Below the pieces are notes generated by a model. That model saw only the letters and a list, made by a program, of their open reading frames with translations, had not been told where the DNA came from and did not search any database. A DNA stretch of 34,549 nucleotides from Betaproteobacteria bacterium (lineage in GTDB: Bacteria > Pseudomonadota > Gammaproteobacteria > Burkholderiales > SG8-41), in NCBI GenBank assembly GCA_025363435.1, contig JANYDY010000037.1, positions 1 through 34,549 of the forward strand, written 5' to 3'. A program made the position numbers and the translations under genes. This document shows, piece after piece, positions 5,380 to 13,248 of this stretch (position 1 is its first letter; each line of letters begins with the position of its first letter).

Positions 5380-5955
5380 ATGCTGGCGCAAACCCTGACT
5401 TTTCTGGTAACGACGATAGGCGACCTGTTCGCCTTCGCGCTGATGACGCGCTTTTTGCTGCAATGGGTGCGCGCGCCGGCACGCAACCAGCTGTCCGAAT
5501 TTGTTGCCGCGCTGACCAATTTCGCAGTGATTCCGGCGCGCCGCTTTATTCCCGGTTTGTGGGGCCTCGATCTGGCAACGCTGTTGCTGGCCCTGCTGAC
5601 CGAAACATTGAAGTTATGGCTGCTGCTCGAAATCAAGGGCATGCAGCTCGGCGCCGCGGCCGGCGTGGCGCTGGTGGCGCTATTTGCCCTGGCGGCAATC
5701 CAGCTCGCGCAACTCGCGGTGTACCTGGTCATGGGCGCGCTGATTCTGCAGGCAATCCTCAGCTGGGTGAATCCCTATAGCCCGGTTGCGCCCATTCTCA
5801 ACAGCATAACGCGGCCCTTCCTGCGGCCGTTCCAGCAGATCATTCCCCCCATCGCCAACGTTGATCTATCGCCGCTGGCAGCGTTACTGGTGTGCCAGTT
5901 GATACTGGCGGTACCGCTAGCCTGGCTGGAAGCGAATCTGGGCCGTCTTTTGTGA
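5380..5955 (+). CDS. yggT: YggT-family integral membrane protein
   Basis: A 191-residue inner-membrane protein with two YggT repeats, each with paired hydrophobic segments: roughly residues 3-27 and 60-85 in the first half, 90-118 and 160-185 in the second. Characteristic sequences are FALMTRFLLQWVRAPARN and ILQAILSWVNPYSPV followed by RPFLRPFQQIIPP. The family is linked to osmotic tolerance in E. coli, and the homologue YlmG to division and envelope organisation in Gram-positives and plastids; the molecular role is unsettled. It starts 8 bp after proC and its stop overlaps the GTG start of the next gene (GTGA, 5952-5955), so translation is probably coupled. Confidence 0.93.
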   Translation: MLAQTLTFLVTTIGDLFAFALMTRFLLQWVRAPARNQLSEFVAALTNFAVIPARRFIPGLWGLDLATLLLALLTETLKLWLLLEIKGMQLGAAAGVALVALFALAAIQLAQLAVYLVMGALILQAILSWVNPYSPVAPILNSITRPFLRPFQQIIPPIANVDLSPLAALLVCQLILAVPLAWLEANLGRLL

Positions 5956-6275
5956 CGGTGGCGGGCTGGTGGACCGGGGACCCGCGCAGCGGAAAAATTA
6001 CGTTGCCATTACATGTGCAGCCGAATGCGCGGCGTACCGCGGTGGCCGGCTGTTACGGCAACGCGTTAAAGCTCAAAATTGCCGCGCCGGCGCTCGACGA
6101 CAAAGCGAATCTGGTGCTAATTGACTTTTTACATCAATGGTTTAAGCTACCACGCTCGCAGATCCGTATCCGCCAAGGTAGTCGCAGCAGGCGTAAAATC
6201 GTGGAACTCGCCAGTTGCGACGCCGATACAATGAACCTGCTTGCCCATCTGGAGTCGTCATGCCCAGCCAATTAG
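5952..6275 (+). CDS. yggU: DUF167/YggU-family protein
   Basis: A 107-residue small basic protein of the DUF167 (YggU) family, whose function is unknown. The core is recognisable: LPLHVQPNARRTAVAG, then LKLKIAAPALDDKANLVLIDFL and IRQGSRSRRKIVEL. The frame is open further upstream to 5892, but the GTG at 5952 overlaps the yggT stop in a GTGA arrangement and gives the usual family N-terminus; a second in-frame GTG at 5958 is also possible. Its 3' end overlaps the start of the first dynamin-like gene by 16 bp, tying that gene to this conserved operon. Confidence 0.85.
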   Translation: MTVAGWWTGDPRSGKITLPLHVQPNARRTAVAGCYGNALKLKIAAPALDDKANLVLIDFLHQWFKLPRSQIRIRQGSRSRRKIVELASCDADTMNLLAHLESSCPAN

Positions 6276-8152
6276 AACAGCGCATTGCCCAATTCACCGA
6301 CTGGCGCACCAAGCTCGTATCTTCGATCGATGAATTTCGCACGTGGCAGGATGCCTATGGCCACGCCGACATCGAACAGACATTACGCATTTATGACATG
6401 GTCGAAGGCCTGCGCAATGACCGTATCCGCCTCGCTTTCATGGGCGAATCGGCCGAAGACAAGGTCGGCCTGATCAACGCGCTGCTGTTTTCGGACATGC
6501 CCGGCGGTCTGCTGCCGCTGGGTGCCGGCTGCGAATTTTTGTGTGCAACGGAAATCTTCCACGATCCGACCGAATCGCCCTATGTTCGGGTGCTGCCGAT
6601 CGACACGCGCAAAAAACAGGAAAGCATCGCCAGCCTGCGGCGCAGTCCGATCGAGTGGATCACCATGCGGCTGAATGCCGACTCGCCGGAATCGATCGCG
6701 GAAGCCACGCGCAGCCTGATGGAATCGCGCGCGGTCAGCATCGACGAAGCCAAGTCGCTGACTCTGACCAATGTCGAGCGCAGCGGTGACGCAGTGATGG
6801 TGCCGGCCTGGCGCTACGCGCTGATCAACATGCCGCACCCGATGCTGAAAAGCGGCCTGATCGTGCTGTATACGCCCGGAACGCAGATGCTGGCATCCGA
6901 GCCAGAGGTTGCGCTGCGCATTGCATCGAGCGCGCAGTCGCTGTTGATGGTGCTGGGCAAGGAACTGGCATCGTCTTCGCGCGATGTGTGGAAACAATAC
7001 GTGCAGAATTCGCAAGCGCATAAATTCGTCGTCCTCGACAGCGGCGCCGGCGCCGACGCGGCGACCGCAGCCAGCGTTGCGCATGCACTCGAATTGCCCG
7101 ACAACAATGTGCTCGCCCTGCCGATCAAACAGGCGGTGGCGGCGCGTCTTGCGCACGAAGAATCCAGCGAATTGATGGAAGGTTTTATCCGTCTGGAAAA
7201 ATTGCACGGCGAAAAACTGGTGCCCGAACGCCAGGCGCTGTTGCTCTCGGCGGTGGCCAAGGAAATCGGCCCGCTGGTGCAGTCGGCGCGTCAGGCAGTG
7301 GCAGCGCGCTTCATTGCCACCGTCAAGGAAATGCAGGACCTGACCTCGACCTCGGGTAAAAACCGCAGCGTCGCGCAGGACATGCTGACGCGGCTTGAGA
7401 GCGAGCGCAAGCTCTACCAAAAAAGCGTCGCCCAGTTCAACGTCACCTATTCCGACCTCAATGCCAAAGGCCAGGAGTTGCTGGCGACGCTGCACGATGA
7501 CCGCATCGAAGAAATTCTCAGCCACGACCGCGAATTCATCCAGGGCGCATGGACCACCGCCGGCATGTGGAAAAACATGCAGGGGCTGTTCGGCTATTTC
7601 GCCACCCAGGTCGAAAAAATTCTCAACTACGCGCAAAAACTGCGTGATGCTGTTGACGGCATTTACCAGAGCTTTCACGAAAACTTCGGCCTCGCCAAAC
7701 TGAGCCCGCCGCCGATCACGCTGCAAAAACACCTCGACGCCATGCATGCGCTCGAGGAAAACGCGCGTTCGTTCTGCCACGATGCGCTCAATATCGCCAC
7801 TTACAAGGATTTCCTGCTCAAGAAGTTCTACGACGGACTGGTTGAAGAAGCGCGCCAGCAGTTCGAACTGACTCGAATTGACACCGAGCACTGGCTGCGC
7901 GGCGCGTTGGGACCGTTGAACGGGCAGATCATGGAGCGCCAGACCCTGATGCTCAAACGGGTCGAGAGCCTGCGCAACATGAAAGACAACCTGACGTCGG
8001 TGCAAGAACGCATCAAACAGCTCGACAGCCAGCGCCAGGGGCTGAAAAAGCAGGGCGAGCAGCTGGATCTGCTGCGCACCAATCTGGCACTGAATACTCC
8101 GCAGCCGCCGGCCAAACCGGCAACCGAAAACACCTCCGTTCCGGCGACATGA
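6260..8152 (+). CDS. Dynamin-like protein with degenerate GTPase motifs (pseudo-GTPase)
   Basis: A 630-residue protein clearly related to the next gene from end to end, and both have the layout of bacterial dynamin-like proteins: short helical N-terminus, GTPase domain (about 55-300), long helical stalk, and a C-terminal coiled coil (about 565-610). The nucleotide-binding motifs are ruined. G1 reads GESAEDKV (62-69) instead of GxxxxGKS/T. The G2 region reads CEFLCATEI (91-99) where the partner has RTTMCPTEI. G3 reads YTPG (204-207) instead of DxxG. G4 is DSGA (about 260-263) instead of NKxD. The probable membrane-contact region (EFIQGAWTTAGMW and following) is preserved, as is the overall frame, so it is not a decaying gene. 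The ATG at 6260 has GGAG upstream and overlaps the yggU stop. It is probably a non-hydrolysing partner of the next protein; this role is inference. Confidence 0.88.
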   Translation: MPSQLEQRIAQFTDWRTKLVSSIDEFRTWQDAYGHADIEQTLRIYDMVEGLRNDRIRLAFMGESAEDKVGLINALLFSDMPGGLLPLGAGCEFLCATEIFHDPTESPYVRVLPIDTRKKQESIASLRRSPIEWITMRLNADSPESIAEATRSLMESRAVSIDEAKSLTLTNVERSGDAVMVPAWRYALINMPHPMLKSGLIVLYTPGTQMLASEPEVALRIASSAQSLLMVLGKELASSSRDVWKQYVQNSQAHKFVVLDSGAGADAATAASVAHALELPDNNVLALPIKQAVAARLAHEESSELMEGFIRLEKLHGEKLVPERQALLLSAVAKEIGPLVQSARQAVAARFIATVKEMQDLTSTSGKNRSVAQDMLTRLESERKLYQKSVAQFNVTYSDLNAKGQELLATLHDDRIEEILSHDREFIQGAWTTAGMWKNMQGLFGYFATQVEKILNYAQKLRDAVDGIYQSFHENFGLAKLSPPPITLQKHLDAMHALEENARSFCHDALNIATYKDFLLKKFYDGLVEEARQQFELTRIDTEHWLRGALGPLNGQIMERQTLMLKRVESLRNMKDNLTSVQERIKQLDSQRQGLKKQGEQLDLLRTNLALNTPQPPAKPATENTSVPAT

Positions 8153-8212
8153 CCGTTGCATAGTGCGGCTCCGCCTTGGCCCGCCGGTCCGGGGCGGCAA
8201 GATGCGCCGGGC

Positions 8213-8240
8213 TTGCGTTTGCCCAAATCCGATGTATCAT
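8213..8240 (+). promoter_or_regulatory. Possible promoter before the second dynamin-like gene
   Basis: The 172-bp gap between the two dynamin-like genes contains TTGCGT (8213-8218), a 16-bp spacer and TATCAT (8235-8240), a passable sigma-70 pair. A second gene-proximal promoter would let the active partner be made independently. The match is weak and the rest of the gap shows only GC-rich imperfect inverted repeats. Confidence 0.25.
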
Positions 8241-8324
8241 GTGAGGTATTGCGTATAAGCTCCGGAAAAAGCGCGGTTTTTTATCCTCGCCCGGATGCGG
8301 CGCCTGCCCACGACCCTAACGCGG

Positions 8325-10289
8325 ATGACGAGCCAGCTCGAACAGGAAGTCGCCCACTACCAAGAGTGGCGGGTGCAGATGATCACCGGGATCGAGTCCT
8401 ACAAATCGTGGCTCGATACCAACGGCTATGCTGACATCCAGCAATCGCTGCGCATCTACGACCTGATCGAAAGCCTGCGCAACGACCGCATGACGCTGGC
8501 CTTCCTCGCCGAGTTCTCGCGCGGCAAAACCGAGCTCATCAATGCGATGTTCTTCTCGGATTTCAAGCAGCGCCTGCTGCCCTCCAACGTCGGCCGCACC
8601 ACCATGTGCCCGACCGAGATTTTTCACGACCCCGCCGACGAACCGTACATCCGCCTCCTGCCGATTGAAACGCGCAAACGCCAGGAAAGCGTCAGCGCAC
8701 TGAAACGCCAGGCAGTCGAGTGGATCAAGATCAAACTCGACGTTGATTCGCGCGACGAGATGACCAACGCCATGAAGAATCTGGTCGAGGTCAAGACGGT
8801 CAGCCTCGAAGAAGCAAAATCGCTCGGCCTGTGGGACGAAGACGACCCGATGGCAAGCACGGTTGTTGTCAAGGAAGGCGGCCTGGTCGAAATACCGGCG
8901 TGGCGGCACGCCATCATCAGCTACCCGCATCCGCTGCTGAAAAGCGGGCTGGTCGTACTCGACACGCCGGGACTCAACGCGCTGGGCACCGAACCGGAAC
9001 TGACGCTGTCGATGATTCCGAACGCGCATGCGATTCTGTTTCTGCTGGCGATCGACACCGGCGTCACCAAATCGGATCTCGACGTCTGGCAAAAATACGT
9101 GCAAACCGCGGCGACTCGCCGCATCGCCGTGCTGAACAAAATCGATCTGATGTGGGACGAATTGAAAACCACCGAACAGATTGCCGCCGACGTCGACCGC
9201 CAGATTGAATCGACATCGAATTTGCTGACGGTGCCGCGCTCGCATGTAATCGCCGTGTCGGCGCAAAAAGCCCTGCTTGCCCGCGTGCGCGAGGACAACG
9301 CACTGCTGGCGAAAAGCGGCATCGAGCAACTCGAGCATCTGCTTGCTTCCGAAATCATTCCGGCCAAGCAGGAAATCATGCGCGCCGCCGTGCAGCGCGA
9401 AATCGGCACCATGGTCGCAGCCTCGCGCTCGGCAGTGGCCAACCAGCTCACCGCAACCGCCACCGAGTTGAAAGAACTCGCCGTGATGTCGGGCAAGAAC
9501 CGCAGCATGGCGCAAACCATGGTGGCGCGGCTGGAAGCCGACCGCAAGAATTATCAGGCCACGGTGCAGGCTTTCCGCGCCACCTACAACACGGTCACCG
9601 GCCAGGGCGCCACCCTGCTCAAGCAACTCGACGAAGATGCGCTCGAAACCGTGCTCAACAAGGATCGCGAATACATCGAGGGCGCGTGGACCACGGCGGG
9701 TCTGTGGAAAAGCATCCAGATGCTGTTTCAGCATTTCACGCTGGTGTCGAGCAAGATTCTCAACTTCGCAAACCAGATCAAGAGGCTGGTCGACATGACC
9801 TACAGCCACTTTCATGAAAAATTCGGTTTTGCGAAACTCGTGCCACCGTCGCTGAATCTGGAAAAACACACGCTGACGATGACCCATTTGCAGTCCACCG
9901 CCAAACAGTTCTGTCACGATCCGGTCAACGTCGCCAAATACAAACGCTTTGTGGTGCAGAAATTCTACGATGGGCTGGTCGGCGAGGCGCGCGGCGTCTT
10001 CGAAATGACGCGGCTGGATGTCGAAGCCTGGCTGAAATCGGCGTTGAATCCGCTCAATCTGCAGATCAAGGAACACGAATCGGTGCTTTCCAAGCGGCTT
10101 GAAAATTTCAAGAAGATCCGCGACAACATCGGTTCGGTCGAAGGCCGCATCAAGCAGCTTGAAACACAGCGTGTCGTGCTCGAACAGCAGCGCGACGTGC
10201 TGGCGCGCATCCAGGCCAGTCTCGATGGTGACGCGCCGATGCCGACTTCAATACCCACCGCCGTGGAAGAACCGGCCGCCGTCGCTTAA
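8325..10289 (+). CDS. Dynamin-like GTPase
   Basis: A 654-residue bacterial dynamin-like protein, a large GTPase that should bind and remodel membranes from the cytoplasmic side. The GTPase motifs are present: G1 AEFSRGKT (62-69, with Ala instead of the first Gly), G2 threonines in RTTMCPTEI (91-99), G3 DTPG (213-216) and G4 NKID (271-274). A long helical stalk follows, with a conserved segment EYIEGAWTTAGLWKSIQ and a hydrophobic stretch where a membrane-contact paddle would be, then a C-terminal coiled coil (about 590-640). The frame is open from 8295, but the ATG at 8325 aligns with the start of the upstream paralogue (MTSQLEQ versus MPSQLEQ); neither has a strong ribosome binding site. Its stop overlaps the stop of the convergent polyphosphate gene. 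The paired arrangement recalls heteromeric bacterial dynamins such as Campylobacter DLP1/DLP2 and Streptomyces DynA/DynB. Confidence 0.92.
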   Translation: MTSQLEQEVAHYQEWRVQMITGIESYKSWLDTNGYADIQQSLRIYDLIESLRNDRMTLAFLAEFSRGKTELINAMFFSDFKQRLLPSNVGRTTMCPTEIFHDPADEPYIRLLPIETRKRQESVSALKRQAVEWIKIKLDVDSRDEMTNAMKNLVEVKTVSLEEAKSLGLWDEDDPMASTVVVKEGGLVEIPAWRHAIISYPHPLLKSGLVVLDTPGLNALGTEPELTLSMIPNAHAILFLLAIDTGVTKSDLDVWQKYVQTAATRRIAVLNKIDLMWDELKTTEQIAADVDRQIESTSNLLTVPRSHVIAVSAQKALLARVREDNALLAKSGIEQLEHLLASEIIPAKQEIMRAAVQREIGTMVAASRSAVANQLTATATELKELAVMSGKNRSMAQTMVARLEADRKNYQATVQAFRATYNTVTGQGATLLKQLDEDALETVLNKDREYIEGAWTTAGLWKSIQMLFQHFTLVSSKILNFANQIKRLVDMTYSHFHEKFGFAKLVPPSLNLEKHTLTMTHLQSTAKQFCHDPVNVAKYKRFVVQKFYDGLVGEARGVFEMTRLDVEAWLKSALNPLNLQIKEHESVLSKRLENFKKIRDNIGSVEGRIKQLETQRVVLEQQRDVLARIQASLDGDAPMPTSIPTAVEEPAAVA

Positions 10290-11761
10290 AGCGCAGCCTC
10301 AAGACGCTCACATAAGGTCTTGAGTATTTCGATCCGCGCAAAATACTTGTCGTTGGCGGGAATCAGCAGCCACGGCGCATGGTCGTTGCTGGTGCGTTCA
10401 ATCATGTCGCAGACCGCCGTTTCGTAGGCGCCCCACTTTTTGCGATTGCGCCAGTCGTCCGGCGTGATTTTGAAGTTCTTGAACGGCGTTTTTTTGCGCT
10501 CGTGAAAACGCCGCAACTGTTCTTCTTTGGTAATGGTCAGCCAGAACTTGGTGACAATACCGCCGGCTTCGGCCAGTTGCTCTTCAAAATCGTTGATCTC
10601 GTGATAAGCGCGCATCCAGTCTTCTTCGGCGCAGAATTTTTCAACACGCTCGACCAGCACGCGCCCGTACCACGAACGGTCGAAAATCGCGATGCGCCCG
10701 CTGCGCGGCAGACTGCGCCAGAAACGCCATAAATAGGGCTGGGCGCGTTCCTCTTCACTCGGCGCTGCAACCGGCGTCACATTGTAGTGACGCGCATCCA
10801 GCGCACCGGTGACACGGCGGATGGCGCCGCCTTTGCCGGCAGCGTCCACGCCTTCAAACACAACGATCAGCGATTTCTGCCGGAATTTTTTGTGGCGGCT
10901 GAGCAGATTGAGCTGTCCCTGGTACTTTTCGAGCTTTTTTGCGTAGTGCTTGTGCGCGAGCCTGCTGTTGTAATCGAGGCTCGACAGGAGGGTGCGACCG
11001 TCCACCGCGGGTGGCGCCAGCGCCGCCGATTTGCTCACGGTAAGCCGTTTGCCGGCCAGCCGCTTGTTGAGCGCACCGAGCACCGCGCGACCCACGGTTA
11101 GGTAGCGATAGTTCGGATCGCTGCCTTCGACCACCTGCCACGGCGCGTAGCCGGTGCTCGTCTCGCGCAAGGCGTCTTCGGAAACCTGGCAGAATTTGTC
11201 ATAGCGCTTGAAGCGCTGCCAGTCGGTTTCGGTCACGCGCCAGCGCGTTTTCGCGTCGGCCTCCAGCGCCTTGAGGCGTTTCTTCTGCGCCTTCTTCGAC
11301 AGATGAAACCAGAATTTGAGTATCAGCGCGCCTTCGTCGGCCAGCATGCGCTCGAACTGGACGATTTCCTCCATCGCCAGTTCCATGCCGGCAGCGTTGA
11401 TTTTTCCCATCACCCGGTTGACGATCGGATCACTGTGCCAGGCGCCAAACAGGATTCCGGTTTGTCCGCGCGGCGGCAAGGCGCGCCAATAGCGCCACAT
11501 GCGCGGGCGCTCACGCTCCTCGTCGGACATTTCACCGAACGCGTGGGTATGGATGTGGCGCGGGTCCATCCATTCGTTGAGGATGTTGGCGGTTTCGCCC
11601 TTGCCGGCGCCGTCAACACCGCCGATGATGATAATGACCGGGAAACTCTTGTCCGCCAGCAACTCGTACTGCGCCTTCAGCAGCGCTTCACGCAGCTTCG
11701 GCACCGCCTTGTCGTAATCGCGGGCGGAAATGCAATGACCGAGTTCAGCCGATTCAAACAT
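10286..11761 (-). CDS. pap: Polyphosphate:AMP phosphotransferase (two-domain PPK2)
   Basis: A 491-residue cytoplasmic enzyme with two fused PPK2 domains, the class that phosphorylates AMP to ADP with polyphosphate. The N-terminal half has Walker A GGVDGAGKG (47-55), but where the Walker B/DR motif belongs it reads ILFGAWHSDPIV (103-114). The C-terminal half has the complete set: EGVDAAGKGG (303-312), the lid YLWRFWRSLPRSG (343-355) and IFDRSWYGRVLVERVE (359-374). This division into a structural N half and a catalytic C half is usual in the family. The ATG at 11761 is chosen because GGAG lies about 9 nt upstream; a TTG two codons earlier is too close to that site. It is convergent with the dynamin-like gene, their stop codons overlapping, and lies 32 bp downstream of rng. 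Confidence 0.95.
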   Translation of the reverse strand: MFESAELGHCISARDYDKAVPKLREALLKAQYELLADKSFPVIIIIGGVDGAGKGETANILNEWMDPRHIHTHAFGEMSDEERERPRMWRYWRALPPRGQTGILFGAWHSDPIVNRVMGKINAAGMELAMEEIVQFERMLADEGALILKFWFHLSKKAQKKRLKALEADAKTRWRVTETDWQRFKRYDKFCQVSEDALRETSTGYAPWQVVEGSDPNYRYLTVGRAVLGALNKRLAGKRLTVSKSAALAPPAVDGRTLLSSLDYNSRLAHKHYAKKLEKYQGQLNLLSRHKKFRQKSLIVVFEGVDAAGKGGAIRRVTGALDARHYNVTPVAAPSEEERAQPYLWRFWRSLPRSGRIAIFDRSWYGRVLVERVEKFCAEEDWMRAYHEINDFEEQLAEAGGIVTKFWLTITKEEQLRRFHERKKTPFKNFKITPDDWRNRKKWGAYETAVCDMIERTSNDHAPWLLIPANDKYFARIEILKTLCERLEAAL

Positions 11762-11793
11762 GTGCAAAGACTCCGGCGCCGCCTGCCGCGCTG

Positions 11794-13248
<1,455 letters not shown>

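Follow-up and report, generated by a model that had tools for sequence, protein, structure and literature searches.

In Campylobacter jejuni, Cj-DLP1 and Cj-DLP2 work as a hetero-oligomer, and the available passages of that report state that hydrolysis needs both P-loops (PMC6104087). In the LeoABC system of enterotoxigenic E. coli, the cited sections describe LeoC and LeoB as splitting one GTPase and keeping the P-loop and switch motifs between them, and LeoA as retaining most catalytic residues (PMC4159319). For IniA and IniC alike, the excerpt cited reports a GTPase domain (PMC6715688). According to the passages at hand, the vertebrate IRGQ quasi-GTPases lack the conserved GTP-binding motifs and are linked to active IRG genes (PMC1297648), and eukaryotic pseudo-GTPases are listed in the cited part of a general pseudoenzyme review (PMC10211241). 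No pair of bacterial dynamins in which one partner lacks the motifs was found among the titles and abstract openings of the best-ranked open-licence PubMed Central articles, which leaves its absence from the literature unproven.

The window analysed here, that is, the whole stretch of 34,549 nucleotides, carries two adjacent dynamin-like genes, P1 and P2, with the following features.

5380..5955, + strand: yggT, marker upstream of P1 (synteny, Pfam)
5892..6275, + strand: DUF167/YggU ORF, marker upstream of P1 (synteny, Pfam)
6260..8152, + strand: P1, dynamin-like pseudo-GTPase of 630 aa (ATG 6260, stop 8152; intact ORF)
6443..6466, + strand: P1 former P-loop (G1) GESAEDKV, G to D and S/T to V, Lys kept (residue table, translation)
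6530..6556, + strand: P1 former switch 1 (G2) CEFLCATEI (residue table)
6869..6880, + strand: P1 former G3 YTPG, Asp lost (residue table)
7037..7048, + strand: P1 former G4, DSGA instead of NKxD (residue table, P1/P2 alignment)
7544..7564, + strand: P1 GAWTTAG turn, candidate membrane-touching tip (alignment, predicted model)
8325..10289, + strand: P2, dynamin-like GTPase with intact motifs (Pfam; open from ATG 8295)
8508..8531, + strand: P2 G1 AEFSRGKT (motif reading)
8961..8972, + strand: P2 G3 DTPG (motif reading)
9135..9146, + strand: P2 G4 NKID (motif reading)
11794..13248, - strand: RNase E/G family gene, convergent marker downstream (synteny, Pfam)

By Pfam, the locus is framed by proC, yggT and DUF167 upstream and by RNase G, Maf and a SPOUT methyltransferase downstream, some of these gene names being provisional. 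The start of P1 lies inside the 3' end of the DUF167 ORF (5892-6275). The P2 ORF is listed from ATG 8295, but only ATG 8325 is conserved in all of the aligned intergenic regions (8/8), and 8325 is therefore the likelier start. In the closest species, the gap between P1 and P2 (window 8150-8325) holds a conserved block TTGCGT...TATCAT followed by CCGGAAAAAG, which might be a P2 promoter. A consensus scan for promoters and terminators over 5900-10500 gave a count no higher than in shuffled sequence and did not flag this block. A PPK2-type polyphosphate kinase gene (window 10286-11767) stands between P2 and RNase G; some species of the genus carry it there, and G001, G004, G007 and G011 lack it between P2 or P1 and RNase G. 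Two metagenome-assembled records with both genes at the locus (L034, L040) are titled Chitinophaga pinensis and Bordetella parapertussis, and these titles look misassigned.

P1 and P2 are paralogues. A preliminary description had aligned them along their whole length, and BLASTP bears this out with 43% identity over 645 columns (572 bits), the alignment spanning the full length. P2 keeps its GTPase motifs, as had been described: it has the G domain with motifs G1 to G4 that marks a bacterial dynamin-like protein, and it matches Pfam Dynamin_N at 1.9e-15. The same model gave no match in P1 at E up to 1. Across the family it matches 24 of 34 members, which is the number of the non-P1 rows (the result is named for the first member only). 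The earlier statement that P1 lacks all four motifs stood for the binding residues and needs amending for the rest. The residue table contains 14 P1 rows from 13 genomes, G013 counting twice since contig breaks divide its gene, and gapped cells were excluded. The P-loop Gly and the P-loop Ser/Thr are replaced in 14/14 rows each, both switch-1 Thr in 13/13, and the G3 Asp as well as the N, K and D of G4 in 11/11, so that the same loss is seen in every row covering each site, while the P-loop Lys (K68) remains in all 14 rows and 8 of 11 rows retain the G3 Gly. P1 also carries a short deletion just after G4 relative to P2. P1 thus lacks the nucleotide-binding motifs G1 to G4 of a bacterial dynamin-like protein, save for the P-loop Lys and mostly the G3 Gly; it is by sequence a pseudo-GTPase, a GTPase homologue without the conserved binding and catalytic motifs that is conserved in this state.

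The P2 copies and the sampled single-copy relatives retain the GTPase motifs, and the non-P1 rows of the residue table keep the residues, except for G049b, a stalk-only gene with no G domain. At 56 loci of relatives in the order (a subset of at least 200 matching genomes, with some loci covering one gene twice), the readable motifs were kept with one exception, TPR for TPG in L142, a frame-broken copy. The motif loss of P1 is common to sequences down to 60% identity and is therefore not due to chance. We considered whether the remaining lysine serves an unconventional ligand site in P1, as K68 is unchanged and G62, E63, S64 and A65 are invariant in a 10-row alignment. The Mg-coordinating Ser/Thr, the switch-1 Thr, the G3 Asp and the entire G4 are gone, however, and we regard such a site as very unlikely.

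Within the genus, P1 was found in 13 of 15 genomes and P2 in 12, the two occurring together in 12 (fragments only in G005 and G012; genes split over contigs in G001). G011 has P1 alone, G003 has neither, and the G010 assembly is broken at the locus. No genome with P2 but without P1 was seen among the 15. In G003 the locus is contiguous and P1, P2 and yggT are all gone, so the pair is dispensable.

The search covered 60 relatives and the 15 genomes of the genus. Neither gene was found in 21 genomes of the family's other genera, and in G020 the locus is intact and empty of both. At L216 (G022) and L217 (G019), about 1.5 kb lies between RNase G and DUF167/yggT; similarity of this stretch to P1, P2 and the stalk-only protein was sought and none was found. 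Outside the genus, identity to P1 reached at most 42% among the matches listed. Of 18 loci in other families, seven (G040, G058, G046, G047, G041, G051, G057) have one P2-like gene with the framing genes on at least one side, G049 holds a stalk-only gene, and ten copies, mostly of type B, are placed elsewhere. In a tree of 37 rows, from which nine fragment rows had been excluded, P1 and P2 each form a clade (100/100 for both) with a similar species order, and two clades of single-copy relatives were labelled type A and type B. The sister relation of P1 and P2 is weakly supported (56/47), and the duplication may for that reason be older than the genus. Synteny and trees point to a tandem duplication within a long-standing proC-yggT-DUF167-dynamin-RNase G locus, with P1 in the operon-proximal place. 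Horizontal import of P1 was also considered; given the resemblance between the two gene trees and the synteny of the locus, it is not favoured.

P1 is under purifying selection. By the Nei-Gojobori method, dN/dS over ten overlapping species pairs was 0.03-0.15 for P1 and 0.05-0.20 for P2, rough values since several dS exceed 1, and relaxed selection is not indicated. The preliminary description had proposed that P1 is a pseudo-GTPase kept by selection, and had named relatives of P1 with intact motifs and relaxed selection as the findings that would speak against it. Neither was encountered, because the motif loss is clade-wide and dN/dS is as low as in P2, and on these sequence grounds the proposal holds; the role of a regulatory or structural partner of P2, also suggested there, is hypothetical. 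The stem of the P1 clade is long (0.81 changes per site vs 0.14 for P2 in the 37-row tree), and within the genus the two proteins keep an equal pace, with mean distances of 0.189 and 0.185 (9 genomes). It suggested one burst of change in P1 followed by stability. The distances of P1 and P2 correlate (r 0.956), which also follows from their shared species history.

The constraint within P1 is inverted. When the two halves were compared in 9 genomes (G011, G013 and the fragment genomes excluded, and the pairs non-independent), the mean distance of P1 was 0.222 for the G part and 0.153 for the stalk, while that of P2 was 0.146 and 0.229. Of the two halves, the G part evolves more slowly in 36/36 pairs of P2, 15/15 of type A and 27/28 of type B, and in only 5/36 of P1. 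In P1 the stalk is thus the slower half, whereas in P2 and nearly all other pairs it is the G domain, and therefore the stalk is the part that matters most in P1.

The open frames and the dN/dS of 0.03-0.15 rule out decay of P1, and we give next to no credence to its being a decaying duplicate. The observations in favour of decay are the loss of both genes in G003 and an in-frame TAG after residue 532 in the P1 copy of G006 (L053, G006:C20, 7789-9627; 95% identical to P1), which would remove the last 98 residues and is either a sequencing error or a real truncation. However, the other ten long P1 copies of the genus have no stop within the match, and truly broken copies elsewhere in the family (G041, G118, G279, G413) show frame changes or several stops.

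It is also conceivable that P1 is an antagonist of P2, acting as a built-in dominant negative that caps its assemblies or blocks the dimer of its G domains. Mean conservation in P1 is 0.96 for the former P-loop against 0.83 for the average of the G part, a level that a surface still in use might show, and P1 stands in the promoter-proximal place. On the other hand, this conservation may just reflect the protein core; the former G3 (0.80) and the former G4 (0.73) are below the same average, and a pure inhibitor should not outlive P2, yet P1 does so in G011. We therefore hold antagonism to be improbable.

The G011 genome is a natural experiment on the bond between the two genes. There, P1 has yggT on one side and RNase G on the other; about 30 bases separate it from RNase G, too few to accommodate P2, and P2 was not found elsewhere in this 69%-complete genome. 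P1 therefore does not strictly require P2. The G011 copy is an open frame of 643 codons, and comparison with three other P1 copies gives dN/dS of 0.20-0.29. It is 60% identical to P1 of the window, about 13 points below the 73% of G004, and nine neighbouring genes in the same comparison differ by -1 to +10 points. P1 of G011 has thus diverged modestly beyond what its neighbours predict.

A second natural experiment is a genus of another family, g23, that shares the locus and has there a stalk-only protein without a G domain (338 aa from the ATG in G049). The gene is present in 11 of 12 g23 genomes (loci L074, L165-L170, L175-L178); all 11 show framing genes next to it, six of them on both sides and the others on one or more, and its dN/dS is 0.20-0.44 in six pairs. 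In the remaining genome, G432 (L187), yggT, DUF167 and RNase G are present and the stalk gene is absent, the match being only the leader before the start codon. Nine of the 12 genomes also carry a type-B frame of 660-672 codons, the motifs of which were read in G049 only. In the genus g81, of the same family as g23, the motifs are full in 8/8 genomes (locus order checked in three).

These two cases bear on the main rival explanation, which holds that P1 is a GTP-independent membrane scaffold acting alone and that its closeness to P2 is a trace of the tandem duplication. It owes this rank to the persistence of the non-catalytic part without an adjacent active copy in G011 and in g23, in both cases with open frames or dN/dS as given above, and the two cases count against a partnership of P1 and P2. 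However, a P2-only genome was never seen among the 15 of the genus, P1 of G011 has moved somewhat further than its neighbours, and G432 has lost the stalk-only gene from the locus. Moreover, the stalk-only proteins are without the tip tryptophan in 11/11 rows, and for this reason they may do another job. We consider a lone scaffold unlikely, at odds that still deserve attention.

The motifs may have been partly lost in a third lineage. The type-A gene of the genus g42 has GECGRARS at G1 (read in G068 only) and HPTG or HPAD at G4, with G3 kept; the case consists of two near-identical genomes (G068 L195; G112 L171/L196), and the locus order was read in G112 only. The contig end of G112 is probably misassembled, an RNase E/G-like stretch and the dynamin apparently having been joined there. 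In a quick tree of the stalk region, with many long branches, P1, the stalk-only clade and the g42 pair stand separately among intact genes. Tentatively, and at somewhat less than even odds, bacterial dynamins may repeatedly have shed catalysis and kept the stalk, which would then have a GTP-independent structural role in a class of non-catalytic dynamin subunits. Within this order, a single locus would possibly have seen two or three such losses of the GTPase. Point substitutions next to a still active sister copy might account for one, complete removal of the G domain for another and partial decay of the motifs perhaps for a third, though we put forward this list with the same reserve. In a Desulfovibrionaceae record (L045:2468-5509), a 1014-codon open frame holds a P2-like stretch of 32% identity, possibly a fused dynamin.

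The predicted structures agreed with the common descent of the two proteins. The AlphaFold2 model of P1 has a mean pLDDT of 81.4 and that of P2 79.5, and the best Foldseek match of both is BDLP 2j69 (E 1.7e-16 and 1.4e-18, respectively); the best matches of both also include IniA, SynDLP and the Campylobacter pair besides the Nostoc BDLP. According to the models, the dynamin architecture is retained in both. P2 is predicted to have the G domain and long helical stalk of the BDLP type, and P1, besides its 43% identity to P2, a G-domain fold and a helical stalk. Both proteins had been said to keep the GAWTTAG segment, which is true of P1 and nearly so of P2. This turn joins two long predicted stalk helices and may touch the membrane. 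Within the stalk part, hydropathy over 19 residues peaks at 0.71 in P1 and 0.88 in P2, which is not transmembrane-like. A search of solved structures with a P1-only sequence profile gave five matches, none of them a dynamin, and a mixed-profile search found BDLP and mitofusins.

Our preferred reading, to which we assign a probability of about 0.6, is that after a tandem duplication P1 lost its GTP site and settled as a non-catalytic subunit that would work with P2. The tandem duplication of a dynamin-like gene at the conserved locus would date to the ancestor of the genus or earlier. The upstream copy, P1, would have undergone one fast change in which the GTP site was lost, and then come under strong purifying selection. 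P2 would supply the GTP-driven cycle of the G domain, and P1 would build or size a mixed assembly via its stalk and membrane tip, without cycling. The mixed assembly is favoured because of the adjacency of the genes, their similar trees, their complementary constraint and the lack of a P2-only genome, and the hetero-oligomer of the Campylobacter pair offers a precedent; physical assembly of P1 with P2, binding to the membrane and any effect on P2 are inferred.

Dynamins are thought of as GTP-driven, and a sister gene without a GTP site that is yet preserved suggests that part of a membrane machinery works without burning GTP. The active/inactive pair separates the role of the stalk from that of GTP in a small and tractable system, and the P1-only species and the stalk-only genus help to part the two functions. 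As the Dynamin_N model does not find P1, annotation based on domains misses proteins of this kind.

Among the known systems, the Campylobacter pair likewise consists of two adjacent dynamin-like genes, as the paralogues P1 and P2 do, and its chains 5oxf/5owv are among the Foldseek matches of both models. It differs in that both partners have P-loops in the passages available (PMC6104087), whereas P1 has no GTP site; since both P-loops are needed there, that mechanism cannot apply unchanged to P1 and P2. LeoABC also comprises tandem bacterial dynamins, and P2 is similar to LeoBC and LeoA in PADLOC (LeoBC model 7.1e-13), while the PADLOC models gave no match to the P1 protein; in the cited sections LeoB and LeoC hold P-loop and switch motifs between them and LeoA most catalytic residues (PMC4159319), unlike the motif-less P1. 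The Nostoc BDLP (2j68/2j69) and the mycobacterial IniA (6j72/6j73) are the best structural matches of both models, but the query-normalised TM-scores are 0.34-0.46, so just the overall architecture is common to them and to P1 and P2. The IRGQ proteins resemble P1 as motif-less dynamin-like relatives linked to an active one, and they were proposed as possible regulatory heterodimer partners; they belong to vertebrates and to another family, and the passages cited describe no long stalk of the BDLP type (PMC1297648). Paired and split bacterial dynamins and vertebrate quasi-GTPases are thus known already.
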